A DNA stretch of 6,993 nucleotides from the NCBI GenBank assembly GCA_934503275.1, contig CAKSVD010000046.1, positions 1-6,993 of the forward strand, given 5' to 3'. The translations under genes were made by a program, and so were the position numbers. Of the stretch, positions 1-6,084 are shown in pieces (positions within the stretch are counted from its first letter, which is position 1; each line of letters starts with the position of its first letter). Below the pieces are notes generated by a model. The model ran no database searches and was not told where the DNA came from. It was given only the letters and a program-made list of their open reading frames with translations. This DNA comes from an uncultured Faecalibacterium sp. GTDB taxonomy: Bacteria; Bacillota; Clostridia; Oscillospirales; Ruminococcaceae.

Positions 1-402
1 AACTGCGGCAACCAGATCAGCACCCTGATGGTGCGCGGTCTGGCACTGGGCGAGGTAGAGCCCGCCGACTTTGTGCGGGTGCTGGGTAAGGAGCTGCGGG
101 TGTCTGCCATCGTGGGCGCAGTGCTGGGCATCGTGAACGGCCTGCGCATCTACCTGATGTACACCTTCCTCTTCCCCGGCCAGTACGCCAACGTGATGGG
201 CTACGCCATCGTGGTCAGCGTGTCGCTGTTCTTCAGCGTCATTCTGGCAAAGCTGGTGGGCGGTATGCTGCCGCTTGCCGCCAAAAAGCTGGGCGCCGAC
301 CCCGCCATCATGGCTACCCCCTTCATCACCACCATCGTGGACGCCTGCAGCCTGATCCTGTATTTCCAGATCGCACAGCTGGTGTTCCGCAATATGATGT
401 AA
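1..402 (+). CDS. mgtE: Magnesium transporter MgtE, C-terminal part (5' end outside window)
   Basis: This is the end of an MgtE-family Mg2+ channel of the inner membrane. The frame is open from base 1 and gives 133 visible residues to the TAA at 400-402. The first residues (NCGNQISTL, then RGLALGE) match the strongly conserved MgtE stretch between the second and third transmembrane helices. Three hydrophobic segments follow: about visible residues 34-58, 66-92 and 107-129. The last begins PFITTIVDA; its Asp (visible residue 114) corresponds by position to the pore Asp that binds Mg2+ in Thermus MgtE. That residue match is inferred from family knowledge. The cytoplasmic N domain, the CBS pair and the first two helices lie outside the window. 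A terminator follows 10 bases after the stop, so this gene ends its transcript. Confidence 0.93.
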   Translation, partial: NCGNQISTLMVRGLALGEVEPADFVRVLGKELRVSAIVGAVLGIVNGLRIYLMYTFLFPGQYANVMGYAIVVSVSLFFSVILAKLVGGMLPLAAKKLGADPAIMATPFITTIVDACSLILYFQIAQLVFRNMM

Positions 403-641: not shown

Positions 642-683
642 CCGGTGTGGAAAACCACAGTTTGTGTCCGTTTTCCACACCGG
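642..683. repeat. Perfect 14-bp inverted repeat holding two opposed DnaA-like boxes
   Basis: CCGGTGTGGAAAAC (642-655) is the exact reverse complement of 670-683. The 14-base loop can form a further CACA/TGTG pairing. Each arm contains one complete 9-mer box. A TTTTT run follows at 685-689, so the element also resembles a plus-strand terminator. Either the DNA acts as paired protein-binding sites or the RNA acts as a hairpin. Confidence 0.75.
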
Positions 684-1082
684 GTTTTTCTCTCCGGTGG
701 TTTGTGGAAAACTGCCCGGGATAAGATTCCAGATTGGAAAAAAGCAAATCCGTAAGCCGGAGTGAACTGTAAAAACAAAAGAAAAACCTTCGACTTTCTT
801 TTTTATAAAAGGCAGAATGCCCACATTTTAGCCCACAAATTTCCAGAATGCGGCGGTATCCATTACGGCTTGTATAGGGCTTTCCTCTATCAGATGTGGA
901 AAACTATGTGGAAAAGGTGGAAAACACCGTTGGAAACTGCGCTTCTTTTTCACAAAAACAGTGGAAAACCCGGTGGAAAAAGTGAAAAGTTCATTCCAGA
1001 ACGGATAGTCCATACAATTTTCGGTTGTCGTTTTGGGACTTAAAACCCGCATGAATGCTGTGCTTTTCCCGCTTTTTCCACA
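646..1082. promoter_or_regulatory. Cluster of DnaA-box-like 9-mers (TTTTCCACA / TGTGGAAAA)
   Basis: Exact copies lie at 646-654 (minus), 671-679 (plus), 703-711 (minus), 895-903 (minus), 907-915 (minus) and 1074-1082 (plus). One-mismatch copies (GGTGGAAAA or AGTGGAAAA) lie at 916-924, 960-968 and 972-980. TTTTCCACA agrees with the classical DnaA-box consensus TTWTNCACA. In random sequence of equal base composition, about 0.003 exact copies would be expected on both strands over this length. The boxes form a left group containing an inverted pair and a right group containing close tandem copies spaced 12 and 9 bases apart. An AT-rich stretch (about 762-843) lies between them. DnaA binding is inferred. 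The role could be a replication origin, a DnaA-titrating cluster, or regulation of the downstream holB unit. Both flanking genes point the same way, and dnaA/dnaN are not in view. Confidence 0.7.
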
Positions 1083-1138: not shown

Positions 1139-1167
1139 TTGAATGCAAGGACCGGTCATGGTAAAAT
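1139..1167 (+). promoter_or_regulatory. Promoter of the rhomboid-like gene and holB unit
   Basis: The -35 element TTGAAT (1139-1144) and the -10 element TAAAAT (1162-1167, 5 of 6 matches to consensus) are separated by 17 bases. A TGn extended -10 lies at 1159-1161. Transcription would start near 1174, only a few bases before the ATG at 1177. That supports the later ATG at 1216 as the real start. The nearest DnaA-like box (1074-1082) ends 56 bases upstream of the -35. Confidence 0.75.
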
Positions 1168-1215: not shown

Positions 1216-1860
1216 ATGAACAACTGGCTGAACAAGCTGGAACGCAAATATGGCCGCTACGGCATCCCGAACCTGACCAATATTCTGGTGGCGGGGCAGA
1301 TCTTAGTGCTGGCCATCGAGCTGTTTGTTGACCGCACCATCCCCTTCTGGCTGGGGCTCAGCCGCAGCCTGCTGCTGCAGGGGCAGATCTGGCGGGTAAT
1401 CAGCTTTATATTCATCCCCTTTTCCGGCGGCAGCATCCTCAGTGTGGTGCTGGGCATCTACTTCACATGGTTCGTCGGCACGGCGCTGGAACGGGAGTGG
1501 GGCGATTTCCGCTATACGGTGTATCTGCTGTCCGGCGTGCTGGGTACGGTGCTGGGCTGTCTGCTCACCGGCGTGACCGCCAGCACCTACTGCCTGTCCC
1601 TCTCGCTGCTGCTGGCCTTTGCCATGCTGTACCCGGAGGTGCAGCTGCTGCTCTTCTTCGTCGTCCCCATCCGGGTGAAGTACTTCGGCGTTTTCGCGGC
1701 AGTGCTGTGGGTGTTCAGCTTTCTGGGCGCTTCCCTGCCCGGCAAGCTGGACTACCTGCTGTCCATGCTCAACGTCTGGCTCTTCTTTGCCCCCATGGCC
1801 TACCGCGCCCTCCGCGCATGGGTGCGCCGGGAACAGTGGAAGAGGAAGAACAGGAGATAA
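1216..1860 (+). CDS. Rhomboid-fold membrane protein, catalytically inactive (pseudoprotease)
   Basis: This is a 214-residue integral membrane protein with about six hydrophobic segments and a basic C-terminal tail (WVRREQWKRKNRR). Rhomboid-family features are visible: GQIWR (56-60) in the first loop, GTALEREWGDFRY (88-100), and LLLAFAMLYPE (131-141), which matches the family stretch after the active site. Aligning that stretch puts STYC (123-126) where active rhomboids have GxSG, so Tyr125 replaces the nucleophilic Ser. The protein contains no histidine, so the catalytic His is missing too. It cannot be a normal rhomboid protease; a chaperone or membrane-quality-control role like that of other pseudo-rhomboids is only a guess. 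The ATG at 1216 is chosen because GGAGG (1203-1207) lies 8 bases upstream. The ATG at 1177 sits almost at the predicted transcription start with no ribosome site. It is probably cotranscribed with holB. Confidence 0.8.
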   Translation: MNNWLNKLERKYGRYGIPNLTNILVAGQILVLAIELFVDRTIPFWLGLSRSLLLQGQIWRVISFIFIPFSGGSILSVVLGIYFTWFVGTALEREWGDFRYTVYLLSGVLGTVLGCLLTGVTASTYCLSLSLLLAFAMLYPEVQLLLFFVVPIRVKYFGVFAAVLWVFSFLGASLPGKLDYLLSMLNVWLFFAPMAYRALRAWVRREQWKRKNRR

Positions 1861-1967: not shown

Positions 1968-2933
1968 ATGATGCTGAACCGCATGGAAGGCAACGCAGAA
2001 CTGAAAACCAGCGTGCAGCAGATGCTGGCCACCCGCCGGCTGACCCACAGCGTGCTGCTGGTGGGGGAAGCCGGCCTTGGCACCGGCTTTGCTGCCCGCT
2101 GCATCGCCGCCGACTACCTCTACCCGGCAGGCGGCGCCGCCGCCGAGGCGCTGCTGCGCGGCGAGTGCTGCCGCGCCGTGGCAAAGGCCGGTAAGCGCGA
2201 CAGCGGCACAGTGGAGACCGGCATCGTGCGGGAGGCCATCTCGGTGTCCGGCATGGGCAGCGGCGGAAAGTATCTGGTGGGTCAGGTCACCGCCATGCGC
2301 AGCGAGATCTTCAACACCAGCCTTTCCGCCGAGGGGCGCGCGGTGCTTTTGTACCATGTGGAGCGGATGAACGAGGAATCCGCCAACGCTCTGCTCAAGG
2401 TCATGGAGGAGCCCCCGGAGGGGGTGCTGTTCCTGCTCACGGCAGATTCGCTGGCCAGCGTGCTGCCCACCATCCGCAGCCGCTGCGTCAGCTTTGCGGT
2501 GGCGCCGGTGTCCCCCGCCGACTGTACCCGCTACTGCGCGGCACAGGGCGTGGACAAAAAAACAGCCGCACTGTACAGTGAGCTGTTCGATGGTCATATC
2601 GGCACGGTGCTGGTGGTCGCCCGGGACGAAGGGCGCACCGCACAGGTGGAAAAGGCGCTGGAACTTGCCCGCGCCGCTGCCGCCCGCGATAGCTACACCG
2701 CCGCCGTGCTGCTTGCCGCCTACGAAAAGGATAAAGCTGCCGCCGCCGCCCTGCTGACCGATTTCCGCGCCGTGGCAGCGGCAGGTCTGCGCAGCAGTCC
2801 CCGCGCCCCGGTGCAGGGTGCGCAGGCACGGCAGGCGGTGCGTCTGGCAGACGCCGCTTTGCAGCGGCTGGGCGCACAGGTGAACCCCAAGGTGGTGCTT
2901 TCGGTGTTCGCGGCAAAGCTGCGCACCCTTTAA
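1968..2933 (+). CDS. holB: DNA polymerase III, delta-prime subunit (clamp loader)
   Basis: This 321-residue protein has the usual delta-prime length. Delta-prime is the clamp-loader subunit that, with delta and tau/gamma, opens the sliding clamp onto primed DNA. An N-terminal AAA+ domain begins HSVLLVGEAGLGTG (27-40). The Walker A Lys is replaced by Thr, as expected for delta-prime, which does not hydrolyse ATP. ANALLKVMEEPP (139-150) and IRSRC (169-173) are family hallmarks; the SRC motif supplies the arginine finger to a neighbouring subunit. The zinc-binding region is reduced: only adjacent C67 and C68 remain where the family often has four spaced cysteines. The C-terminal part is Ala-rich and helical. 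AAAGGAG (1951-1957) lies 10 bases before the ATG at 1968; the ATG at 1971 is an alternative start. It is probably read from the promoter at 1139-1167, with no other clear promoter in the 107-base gap. Confidence 0.9.
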   Translation: MMLNRMEGNAELKTSVQQMLATRRLTHSVLLVGEAGLGTGFAARCIAADYLYPAGGAAAEALLRGECCRAVAKAGKRDSGTVETGIVREAISVSGMGSGGKYLVGQVTAMRSEIFNTSLSAEGRAVLLYHVERMNEESANALLKVMEEPPEGVLFLLTADSLASVLPTIRSRCVSFAVAPVSPADCTRYCAAQGVDKKTAALYSELFDGHIGTVLVVARDEGRTAQVEKALELARAAAARDSYTAAVLLAAYEKDKAAAAALLTDFRAVAAAGLRSSPRAPVQGAQARQAVRLADAALQRLGAQVNPKVVLSVFAAKLRTL

Positions 2934-3183: not shown

Positions 3184-3702
3184 TCACCCGTTTTTCATCT
3201 GCTCCGCGTGCAGTTTTCCGTGCTCCACATAGTGCACGGCGTTGTGCAGGTTTGCTTCTATCTGCGCCGCGCTCACCTGCTTGATGACCCGGGCAGGCAC
3301 GCCCACCGCCACGGAATTGTCCGGGATGACCATGCCCTCCGGCACAAGCGCCCCTGCCCCGATGATGCAGTTTTTGCCCACCACGCAGTGGTTCAGCAGG
3401 GTGGCGTGCATCCCGATGAGGCTGCCGTCCCCTACGGTGCAGCCGTGCACCAGGGCGCAGTGCCCTACCGTGACGTTTTCGCCAAGGGTCACGCAGCCGC
3501 CAATGTCGCAGTGCAGCACCGCGTTGTCCTGCACGTTGCTGTTTTTGCCGATGGTCAGCGTGCCGTCATCGCCGCGCAGCACCGCGCCGTACCAGACGGT
3601 GGAGCCGGGCTTTAAGATAACATCCCCCTGCACGGTGGCGCTGGGCGCTACAAAGGCTGCACCTTCATCTCGGGGCATTTTTCCACAAAAGGACAAGAAC
3701 AT
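3184..3702 (-). CDS. Gamma-class carbonic anhydrase-like hexapeptide-repeat protein
   Basis: This 172-residue left-handed beta-helix protein belongs to the gamma carbonic anhydrase/YrdA family. Hexapeptide repeats run from about residue 15 to 140. Family marks include YGAVLRGDDG (38-47), NVQDNAVLH (56-64), TVGHCALVHGC (78-88) and GVPARVIK (134-141). His64, His81 and His86 are in the positions of the three Zn ligands that bind metal between subunits of the trimer. Many bacterial members show weak or untested CO2 hydration activity, so the reaction is inferred. A C-terminal helix (about 144-170) packs outside the beta-helix in this family. AAGGTGG (3718-3712) lies 9 bases before the ATG. The gene is divergent from the first carboxypeptidase gene, 117 bases apart, and convergent with holB. 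No terminator follows directly; the nearest is the hairpin at 2995-2947. Confidence 0.88.
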   Translation of the reverse strand: MFLSFCGKMPRDEGAAFVAPSATVQGDVILKPGSTVWYGAVLRGDDGTLTIGKNSNVQDNAVLHCDIGGCVTLGENVTVGHCALVHGCTVGDGSLIGMHATLLNHCVVGKNCIIGAGALVPEGMVIPDNSVAVGVPARVIKQVSAAQIEANLHNAVHYVEHGKLHAEQMKNG

Positions 3703-3819: not shown

Positions 3820-4719
3820 ATGGATCTTCATAAAAACTGCCGCCGACTGGCGGCATGGGTGCTTACGCTGGCACTGGCTGCGACGCTGGCGCTGCCGGGC
3901 GGGGCGGTATACGCAATGCCCATTCAGACAGCCAATGCACAGGAAAGCGTTTACCTGATCAACGCTGTCACCGGTGAGGTGCTGCTGGATCAAAATTCCG
4001 GGCAGCAGCGCTGCGTAGCCAGCCTGACCAAGATGATGACCGCCCTGCTGCTGCTGGAAAGCGGCAAGAACCTTGACGAGACCATTACCGTGCCCGCCAG
4101 CCTGACGGAGGAGTTCCAAAATATCCGCAGTCAGAATGGCTGCACCATTCTGCTGACGGCGGGCGAACAGCTGCGCCGCATCGACCTGCTGTATGCGCTG
4201 CTGGTGTGCAGCGCCAACGATGCCGCCAGCGTCATCGCGTGGGACGTGGCGGGCAGCATCCCTGCCTTTGTGCAGCAGATGAACGCCCGGGCGGCGCAGC
4301 TGGGCTGCACCAGTACCCGGTTCTCCTGCCCGCATGGCCTGTACGACGATGGAAATGTTTCCACCGCACAGGATATGGGAAAGATCGCGATGGCCTGTGC
4401 CCAGTACGAACTTTACCGCCAGATCGCCGATACCCTGCAATACGAGATCCCGGCAACGAATCAGCACGCGGCGCGCAGCATCCATTCCACCAACAAGATG
4501 CTGGATCCGGAAAACAGCTGCTACCGCGCCTACATTCACGGCATGAAGACCGGGTTTACCACAAAAGCCGGGCGCTGCTATGTGACCGCCGCCCAGCAGG
4601 GCGACAGCATTTACGGGCTGGTCATTCTGGGCTCGGACCGGAAAAACATCTATGCCGAGGCCGCGGCCATTCTGGACTGGGCCTTTGCGGGCTGTCCGCA
4701 GCAGCAGGCTGCTGCCTGA
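3820..4719 (+). CDS. D-alanyl-D-alanine carboxypeptidase, peptidase S11, short form
   Basis: This 299-residue exported penicillin-binding protein would trim the terminal D-Ala from peptidoglycan pentapeptides. A Sec signal peptide is evident: basic start, hydrophobic 12-26, likely cleavage near AVYA/MP at 32. All three active-site motifs are intact: SLTK (Ser68, Lys71), SAN (131-133) and KTG (243-245, followed by FTT). The protein stops right after the catalytic domain with GCPQQQAAA. It lacks the C-terminal beta domain and membrane anchor of its downstream paralogue and of PBP5-type enzymes. The mature enzyme should therefore be soluble or released, unless the signal sequence stays uncleaved as an anchor. 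Only 72 bases separate its stop from the next start, and no remnant of the missing domain is seen there. AAGGGAG (3807-3813) lies 6 bases before the ATG. Confidence 0.9.
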   Translation: MDLHKNCRRLAAWVLTLALAATLALPGGAVYAMPIQTANAQESVYLINAVTGEVLLDQNSGQQRCVASLTKMMTALLLLESGKNLDETITVPASLTEEFQNIRSQNGCTILLTAGEQLRRIDLLYALLVCSANDAASVIAWDVAGSIPAFVQQMNARAAQLGCTSTRFSCPHGLYDDGNVSTAQDMGKIAMACAQYELYRQIADTLQYEIPATNQHAARSIHSTNKMLDPENSCYRAYIHGMKTGFTTKAGRCYVTAAQQGDSIYGLVILGSDRKNIYAEAAAILDWAFAGCPQQQAAA

Positions 4720-4791: not shown

Positions 4792-6084
4792 ATGCTTTAC
4801 AACACGTTCGGCCGCCGGTTGGCGGCGCTGGTGCTCACATTGGCAGTGGCTCTTTCGGCAGTGCTGCCGGGGTTTGCGGCATACCCCATGCCCATCCAGA
4901 CCGCAACCGAGACCGAGGCGGTGTATCTGTTCAACGCGGACACCGGCAAGACCATCCTGAACCAGAACGCCGACCAGCAGAAATATGTGGCCAGCCTGAC
5001 CAAGCTGATGACCGCCCTGCTGCTGGTGGAAAGCGGCAAGGACCTGAACGGTGAGGTGACCGTGCCCACCGACCTGACGCAGGAGTTCAAGGATATCCAG
5101 AACGCCAACGGCACCACCATAGGGCTGCGCATCGGCGAGACCGTGCGCCGCATCGACCTGCTGAACGCCATGCTCATCGTCAGCGCAAACGACGCTGCCA
5201 GCGTTATTGCGTGGGACGTGGCGGGCAGCGTGGTGGGCTTTGTGCAGCAGATGAACGCCAAGGCGGCAGAGCTGGGCTGCACCGGCACGAACTTTACCTG
5301 TGCCCACGGCCTGTTTGACTACGGCAACGTGTCCACCGCGCAGGATCTGGCAAAGATCGCCGCCGCCTGTGCGGAGAACCAGACCTTTGCACAGGTGGCA
5401 GGCACCGCCAGCTATGTGCTCCCGGCCACCAATCTGCGCAAGGCGGAGCATACCATCAGCAGCTCCAACAGCCTGATGAACAGTGAAAGCGCCAACTACC
5501 GGGAATATGTCAAGTGGGTCAAGGGTGGCTTTACCACGCTGGCAGGCCGCTGCATCGTGGCCTTTGCCCAGCAGGACGGCCACAGCTACGGGCTGGTGAT
5601 CCTTGGCTGCGACACGCAGGACCATCTGTTTACCGCGTGTGATGACCTGTTCGACTGGGCGTTTGCCAGCTTTGCCGACCGGCCGCTGGTGGATACCAAG
5701 ACCGTGCTGACCACCGTAGACCTGACCAAGTGCCGCACCGAGCCGGTTGTGGAACTGTACGCTGCCGCCCCGGTCAGCGGCTACGGCCACAGCGACGATA
5801 AGGTAAGCTATTCCTTTGACCTGCCCGAGAGCGTCTCCGCTACCGTTAAGGATGGCCAGAAGCTGGGCACCGCCACCGTCTATCTGGACGGCTACGAGGT
5901 GGGACAGGTAGACCTTGTGACCCACCGGGAGTATGTGTCGGATTTCCGCACCGATCTCAAGGCCACCCTGCTGCTGCTCTGCGCCCTGATTTTGATTTTG
6001 TGTGCACTGGGCTTTGTCACCCTGCGCTGCGGCGGCGGGCTGACCCTCAACCAGCGCCGCCGTCAGATGAAGAAGAATAGATAA
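4792..6084 (+). CDS. D-alanyl-D-alanine carboxypeptidase-like protein (S11), membrane-anchored, KGG variant
   Basis: This 430-residue paralogue of the upstream gene is alignable from the signal peptide onwards (both carry ASLTK, SANDAASVIAWDVAGS and GNVSTAQD at the same positions). The layout is a signal peptide (1-30), S11 catalytic domain (about 40-292), C-terminal beta domain (about 305-385), a transmembrane helix (391-411) and a short basic cytoplasmic tail. Ser68, Lys71 and SAN (131-133) are present. The third motif reads VKGGFTT (243-249), so the KTG Thr, which helps bind the substrate carboxylate, is Gly245. Activity may be reduced or altered, or the protein may mainly bind peptidoglycan. 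AGGGGG (4779-4784) lies 7 bases before the ATG. No strong promoter is seen in the 72-base gap, so readthrough from the first gene is likely. A strong hairpin begins right after the stop. Confidence 0.9.
   Translation: MLYNTFGRRLAALVLTLAVALSAVLPGFAAYPMPIQTATETEAVYLFNADTGKTILNQNADQQKYVASLTKLMTALLLVESGKDLNGEVTVPTDLTQEFKDIQNANGTTIGLRIGETVRRIDLLNAMLIVSANDAASVIAWDVAGSVVGFVQQMNAKAAELGCTGTNFTCAHGLFDYGNVSTAQDLAKIAAACAENQTFAQVAGTASYVLPATNLRKAEHTISSSNSLMNSESANYREYVKWVKGGFTTLAGRCIVAFAQQDGHSYGLVILGCDTQDHLFTACDDLFDWAFASFADRPLVDTKTVLTTVDLTKCRTEPVVELYAAAPVSGYGHSDDKVSYSFDLPESVSATVKDGQKLGTATVYLDGYEVGQVDLVTHREYVSDFRTDLKATLLLLCALILILCALGFVTLRCGGGLTLNQRRRQMKKNR

Follow-up and report, generated by a model that had tools for sequence, protein, structure and literature searches.

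A conserved cluster of predicted DnaA boxes upstream of holB in Faecalibacterium, mostly near but separate from the dnaA-dnaN region, as a candidate DnaA sink

Gene content and predicted DnaA boxes of the window

The stretch of Faecalibacterium DNA analysed here (6,993 nucleotides, hereafter the window) carries the 3' part of mgtE and, beyond a region of gene-free DNA, a unit formed by the gene for a rhomboid-like membrane protein and holB (Table 1). These are the neighbours named in the original prediction (MgtE, a rhomboid-like protein and the delta prime subunit of DNA polymerase III), and they lie on the plus strand throughout, as stated there. The rhomboid-holB unit is preceded by a sigma-70-like promoter candidate; the promoter scan returned one site against a mean of 1.1 in shuffled sequences, which is no better than chance. 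Farther downstream is a tandem pair of D-Ala-D-Ala carboxypeptidase (Peptidase_S11) genes (3820-4719 and 4792-6084), of which the second alone has a match to the PBP5_C domain. No Rfam family reached its gathering score in the window, and a reading of the region as a structured RNA was rejected on this ground and on the consensus fold, in which covariation contributed a term of 0.9 and folding one of -30.89. A search for viral copies of the rhomboid gene confirmed none.

Within positions 646-1082, the gene-free region contains the six exact TTTTCCACA/TGTGGAAAA 9-mers that had been predicted, together with four copies carrying one mismatch, rather than the three originally counted. The AT-rich DNA described between the left and right groups of boxes is also present. 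When up to one mismatch is allowed, the window holds 13 matches, compared with a mean of 1.65 and a maximum of 5 in 200 shuffles.

Table 1. Coordinates of genes, predicted DnaA boxes and other features in the window.
Feature	Position	Strand	Remarks
mgtE, 3' part	1..402	+	Hairpins downstream at 408-449 and 491-526
DnaA box, exact TTTTCCACA	646..654	-	Left group; forms an inverted pair with box 671..679 (642-655/670-683)
DnaA box, exact	671..679	+	Left group
DnaA box, exact	703..711	-	Left group
Conserved non-box motif ATTCCAGATTGGA	726..738		Similar copy at 993-1005
AT-rich stretch, 25% GC	769..812		Holds block C-TCGACTTTCTTTT (788-802)
Motif WTAC-N5-GTATA (TTACGGCTTGTATA)	863..876	+	18 bp ahead of box 895..903
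DnaA box, exact	895..903	-	First in the phased right array
DnaA box, exact	907..915	-	+12 bp from box 895..903
DnaA box, one mismatch TTTTCCACC	916..924	-	+9 bp; GTGGAAAA core invariant in the nine rows of alignment A2
DnaA box, inverted, one mismatch TTTTTCACA	946..954	+	
DnaA box, one mismatch TTTTCCACT	960..968	-	
DnaA box, one mismatch TTTTCCACC	972..980	-	+12 bp from box 960..968
DnaA box, exact	1074..1082	+	Found in L001-L003, the three closest relatives; absent in L004-L008
Sigma-70-like promoter (predicted), TTGAAT-17-TAAAAT	1139..1167	+	Precedes the rhomboid-holB unit; kept in the alignment
Rhomboid-like membrane protein gene	1216..1860	+	Further in-frame ATG at 1177
holB, DNA polymerase III delta prime subunit	1968..2933	+	
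Seventh exact TTTTCCACA	3679-3687		Start of hexapeptide-repeat gene 3184-3702; outside the cluster

Genome-wide counts were taken from a complete relative, Faecalibacterium sp. I4-1-79 (G001), whose rhomboid is about 97-98% identical to that of the window. The exact 9-mer occurs 118 times in its 3.23 Mb (65 forward and 53 reverse, all positions being listed), and six of these copies fall within 437 bp (20,496-20,932), the densest such stretch on the chromosome, in keeping with the dense cluster originally described. The runner-up stretch contains four copies, and the Poisson probability of finding six copies so close together anywhere in this genome is about 8e-10. When one mismatch is tolerated, no box cluster scores higher than this one in any of the eight Faecalibacterium loci identified (L001-L008) or in either of the 400-kb regions around dnaA (G001 and G002).

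The runner-up stretch of G001 (176,686-177,041; L038:16686-17041) belongs to a second DnaA-box cluster, observed in three Faecalibacterium genomes (also G002, at about 1,806,100, and G007, C13:252,442-252,573) upstream of a metal P-type ATPase-like gene, as read from sequence. It lies 107-177 kb from dnaA in these three genomes, and the small gene that precedes it in G001 encloses one of the four exact 9-mers found there. This ATPase-side cluster may be a further DnaA sink.

Conservation, spacing and link to holB

When species genomes were scanned using the rhomboid alignment, eight Faecalibacterium loci (L001-L008, from genomes G001-G008) and one distant match were recovered, and the eight loci were aligned with the window in nine rows (alignment A2). 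The boxes are conserved in these related strains, as the original prediction had envisaged, and this holds for the weak boxes too: among rows that are not independent because they are related, 65 of 81 columns within boxes are invariant, compared with 74 of 260 elsewhere. The non-box blocks kept in the same alignment are C-TCGACTTTCTTTT, ATTCCAGA and WTAC-N5-GTATA, and all but one column of C-TCGACTTTCTTTT are invariant across the nine rows. C-TCGACTTTCTTTT and ATTCCAGATTGGA are strongly conserved in Faecalibacterium and partially conserved beyond it.

The search with the rhomboid alignment was extended to 396 genomes of the family of G001, which we take to be the Ruminococcaceae; 173 matched, and a set of 30 loci among the best was taken for analysis. 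Every one of the 19 loci with holB next door on the same strand has 4-12 boxes within 700 bp of upstream DNA, a count that in each case exceeds the largest of 100 shuffles, while the 11 rhomboid loci lacking an adjacent holB all carry 0-2 boxes over the same distance. The 19 holB-linked loci include G001 and G007 again, and since their rhomboid identity to the window ranges from 97% down to 36%, most of them come from divergent relatives. Boxes were also found upstream of three holB genes with no rhomboid gene alongside (G089, G083 and G173; loci L184, L199 and L202), with the order cluster, holB and ricT-like gene read from sequence in G173. The presence of boxes before holB genes that lack an adjacent rhomboid gene indicates that the cluster goes with the place before holB and not with the rhomboid gene. 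In six further genomes (G216, G148, G012, G139, G059 and G235) no good holB match was obtained: the top candidates reach 27-40% identity, in part along a short segment, and the 1.5 kb preceding them contain only one to five dispersed boxes.

The boxes are regularly spaced. Across the 19 holB-linked loci, 50 of the 57 spacings of up to 40 bp between neighbouring boxes on the same strand measure 9, 12 or 21 bp, and the sum of 9 and 12, 21 bp, corresponds to two helical turns. Distances from the end of the WTAC-N5-GTATA motif to the boxes include 18, 30, 39, 83 and 95 bp in all nine Faecalibacterium rows. In the family search, the motif lies upstream in 11 of the 19 holB-linked loci as opposed to none of the 11 rhomboid loci without holB, and the gap to the first box in nine further motif-bearing loci is 18 bp (two loci), 19 bp (three), 21 bp (two), 11 bp (one) or 31 bp (one). 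Among the holB loci lacking a rhomboid gene, G173 shows the pattern 18-30-39 and G089 the pattern 19-31-82-94.

The arrangement of the motif followed by phased boxes was detected in five of 24 genome regions (1.15 Mb in all) and in neither of two controls. A pattern with fixed gaps between motif and boxes, which by design is blind to holB-linked clusters with other gaps, gave one match each in 16 of the 396 family genomes, a few of which may be due to chance, since the backwards control gave two. Seven of the 16 (G001, G007, G374, G336, G173, G022 and G065) lie at rhomboid-linked places or coincide with matches of model R1. The R1 matches themselves (146 of 197 family genomes, E <=0.001) were not counted as copies of the cluster, being mostly weak and perhaps reflecting any box-rich DNA.

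Position relative to dnaA and the origin

The placement of dnaA and the cluster was checked in 38 genomes (G001-G008 and 30 more). A holB-linked cluster and dnaA are on one contig in 16 of these (G001-G008, G374, G020, G145, G313, G214, G354, G089 and G173), and the distance between them, worked out by hand, is 18.7-30.2 kb in every case; G006 and G374 keep this distance with the segment inverted relative to dnaA. In other genomes the two features fall on different contigs. The original description of the cluster as lying away from dnaA has to be qualified, since the separation in relatives is mostly just 19-30 kb. In G159, a nine-box holB-linked cluster sits on a 175.6-kb contig and dnaA lies 119 kb from the end of another; on a correct assembly, the two would be separated by about 200 kb or more. 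Proximity to the origin is thus not a strict rule.

Clusters near dnaA also occur in other gene settings. In G227 and G325, the rhomboid-holB unit lies 244 and 195 kb from dnaA and has no boxes upstream, and other clusters are found near dnaA (at +11.9 and -10.1 kb in G227, and at -7.0 kb in G325). According to gene names read from sequence, the near-dnaA cluster follows gyrA-like and transposase-like genes in G059, and is placed between recF and gyrB in G216 and between mnmG and mnmE in G012. Scoring was carried out on 15 of the 24 regions, and a cluster outside the dnaA region exceeded the largest of 30 shuffles in 11 of them; the remaining four (G148, G235, G083 and G139) had no near-dnaA cluster above that level.

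A group of boxes was observed about 11 kb from dnaA in G059 (+11.9 kb), G173 (+10.8 kb), G227 (+11.9 kb) and G235 (+10.4 kb), with a gyrA-like gene ahead of it in G059, G173 and G235. The group in G235 scores 5 against a largest shuffle of 7, and a WTAC-N5-GTATA motif precedes its 12/9-spaced array of weak boxes.

The dnaA gene and its own boxes were located on the same contig as the cluster in all eight Faecalibacterium genomes, these boxes being in the dnaA-dnaN gap. From the 3' end of dnaA towards dnaN, the gap presents conserved boxes, then CCCC, then a repeat of the CTACTAC type; the origin of B. subtilis has the order boxes, GC-rich spacer and DnaA-trios, as given in an excerpt of PMC8287927. 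A relaxed trio scan (a box followed within 16 bp by CTACTA or CTATTA) was positive at all eight Faecalibacterium dnaA loci and at 25 of 30 family dnaA loci, and negative at the 19 rhomboid-holB copies of the cluster and in the window. A strict scan, demanding three or more uninterrupted trios, returned 22 of 30 dnaA-dnaN gaps, G001 being missed because its repeat is interrupted, versus none of the 19 cluster loci and no instance in the window. The commonest box steps in the dnaA-dnaN gaps are 21, 20, 11, 12 and 9 bp.

GC skew was informative to differing degrees. Within Faecalibacterium it is too weak to decide: in G001, over +/-200 kb, the minimum falls at -67.9 kb from the record start at dnaA and helps neither reading, and in G002, over 400 kb, a flat minimum lies 2.3 kb downstream of the start of the dnaA motif and the cluster sits on the same plateau. 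Around the cluster and dnaA of G159 the skew gave no usable signal. In G089, which has a strong skew, the local minimum of the cumulative curve is at +1.9 kb from dnaA and the holB-linked cluster at +29.2 kb. Among nine regions chosen from the 24, six have minima at +1.5 to +2.9 kb from dnaA, and the other three at +11.7 kb (G012), -2.4 kb (G173) and -4.9 kb (G216).

The suggestion that the cluster might be an unannotated origin was therefore not sustained as the main reading, since scans of the cluster yielded no trios and, in relatives whose skew is clear, such as G089, the turning point falls at dnaA; boxes as well as a trio-like repeat are present in the dnaA-dnaN gap some 20 kb off. That the cluster is the main origin is unlikely.

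Possible roles of the cluster and comparison with known systems

Taken together, these data define a conserved cluster of predicted DnaA boxes that is mostly near, but separate from, the likely dnaA-dnaN origin, and its role is more probably than otherwise that of a sink for DnaA, the initiator of chromosome replication, limiting re-initiation. The alternative raised in the original prediction, a DnaA-titrating locus, is thus the better supported part of that proposal, given the conservation of the cluster, its location near yet apart from the dnaA origin region and its helically phased boxes, DnaA binding being predicted. The retention of weak boxes at 9- and 12-bp steps (21 bp) suggests that DnaA would bind the array cooperatively, and an array devoid of trios would presumably be incapable of opening the duplex. 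Being copied early, the cluster would double soon after initiation and could draw DnaA away from the two new origins. A second protein may bind WTAC-N5-GTATA and help to build the complex. Several observations weigh against the sink: a fixed second motif would be needless in a pure sink, the constant link to holB would fit transcriptional control equally well, and the strict second motif is absent from eight of the 19 holB-linked loci. We also entertain, as a speculative and rather unlikely proposal, that the cluster is a "blind origin", a family element resembling datA and DARS in which the motif-bound protein nucleates a phased DnaA filament that does not unwind DNA and resets DnaA after initiation.

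Because the link to holB is so constant, the strongest rival to a sink is control of rhomboid-holB transcription, with DnaA bound to the array acting mainly as a transcription factor that ties the supply of clamp loader to the DnaA level. The cluster precedes holB in all 19 rhomboid-holB loci of the family set and in the three holB loci that lack a neighbouring rhomboid gene, promoter-like sites occur ahead of the rhomboid gene in 13 of the 19 loci with holB versus three of the 11 without, and DnaA of B. subtilis is reported, in the part of PMC4447404 at hand, to control genes beside its other binding regions. However, the array in the window stops about 160 bp before the -35 hexamer, L004-L008 lack the sole box closer to that hexamer, two relatives (G227 and G325) keep the rhomboid-holB unit without boxes, and the clusters that other relatives have near dnaA sit in different gene settings; on balance, we hold this possibility to be doubtful. 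The fixed geometry of motif and boxes in Faecalibacterium is also reminiscent of datA and DARS2, for which IHF or Fis is required (passages of PMC5295017), and the existence of a second motif speaks for a partner protein of some kind, as would suit an active switch of the datA/DARS type, in which a complex of DnaA and its partner alters the nucleotide bound to DnaA. Such a switch seems improbable, no regulator of DnaA-ATP/ADP conversion being known in B. subtilis according to the same passages.

Two further explanations can be set against the evidence presented above. A main or second chromosomal origin would account for the many boxes, the AT-rich stretch and the gene-free DNA, and the copy in G002 lies within the flat skew minimum; nevertheless, boxes with a CTACTA-type repeat characterize the dnaA-dnaN gap of all eight Faecalibacterium genomes and neither the 19 cluster loci nor the window, the skew minimum of G089 is well separated from its cluster, and that of G002 is close to the dnaA motif, so that an origin at this site is very unlikely. 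It would be harder still to regard the boxes as products of chance or base composition, an explanation of negligible probability: 9-mers within one mismatch of two box forms do occur every 1.3 kb or so around dnaA (G001 and G002), but the shuffle and genome-wide controls, and the fact that boxes and spacing are kept even in divergent relatives, argue strongly against it.

The favoured reading of the cluster as a DnaA sink concerns a single defined locus, conserved and non-coding, of a genus prominent in the gut; this locus offers exact predicted boxes and a possible partner motif. If the cluster is a sink or a switch, DnaA control clusters linked to the origin would have been kept across a bacterial family, and the motif would point to a still unnamed partner protein. 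To our knowledge, little has been established on what limits initiation in Gram-positive bacteria outside Bacillus. Searches of the open-licence literature returned nothing on a Faecalibacterium replication origin together with the DnaA box and, among the matches listed for DnaA boxes with holB, DnaA-box clusters and the motif, nothing on this locus.

Among known systems, an oriC of the dnaA-dnaN type with BUS, composed of boxes, a GC-rich spacer and DnaA-trios, shares with the cluster its box consensus and part of its box steps, and differs in its trios, none of which were found in the 19 cluster loci. The DnaA-box clusters (DBCs) of B. subtilis are likewise dense groups of boxes outside oriC. 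As reported in the sections of PMC5295017 consulted, they limit free DnaA and prevent early initiation, and removal of six clusters outside oriC leads to early initiation, the effect being strong only with all six gone; the same source also states that no B. subtilis cluster has a significant role. None of the eight main DnaA binding regions of B. subtilis is named at holB in Table 1 of PMC4447404, and the word holB does not appear in the main text of that article, within the portion seen. The 12/9-bp array and its 18-bp link to the motif are not described for the B. subtilis clusters in these partial sources, a comparison made by description only.

In layout alone, the cluster can be likened to datA, DARS1 and DARS2 of E. 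coli, which are non-coding DnaA-box clusters with sites for helper proteins. Different E. coli strains keep the relative distance that separates datA and the DARS elements from oriC (excerpt of PMC5010248), and E. coli boxes gather towards oriC, with single-molecule work supporting titration, according to an extract of PMC12371093.
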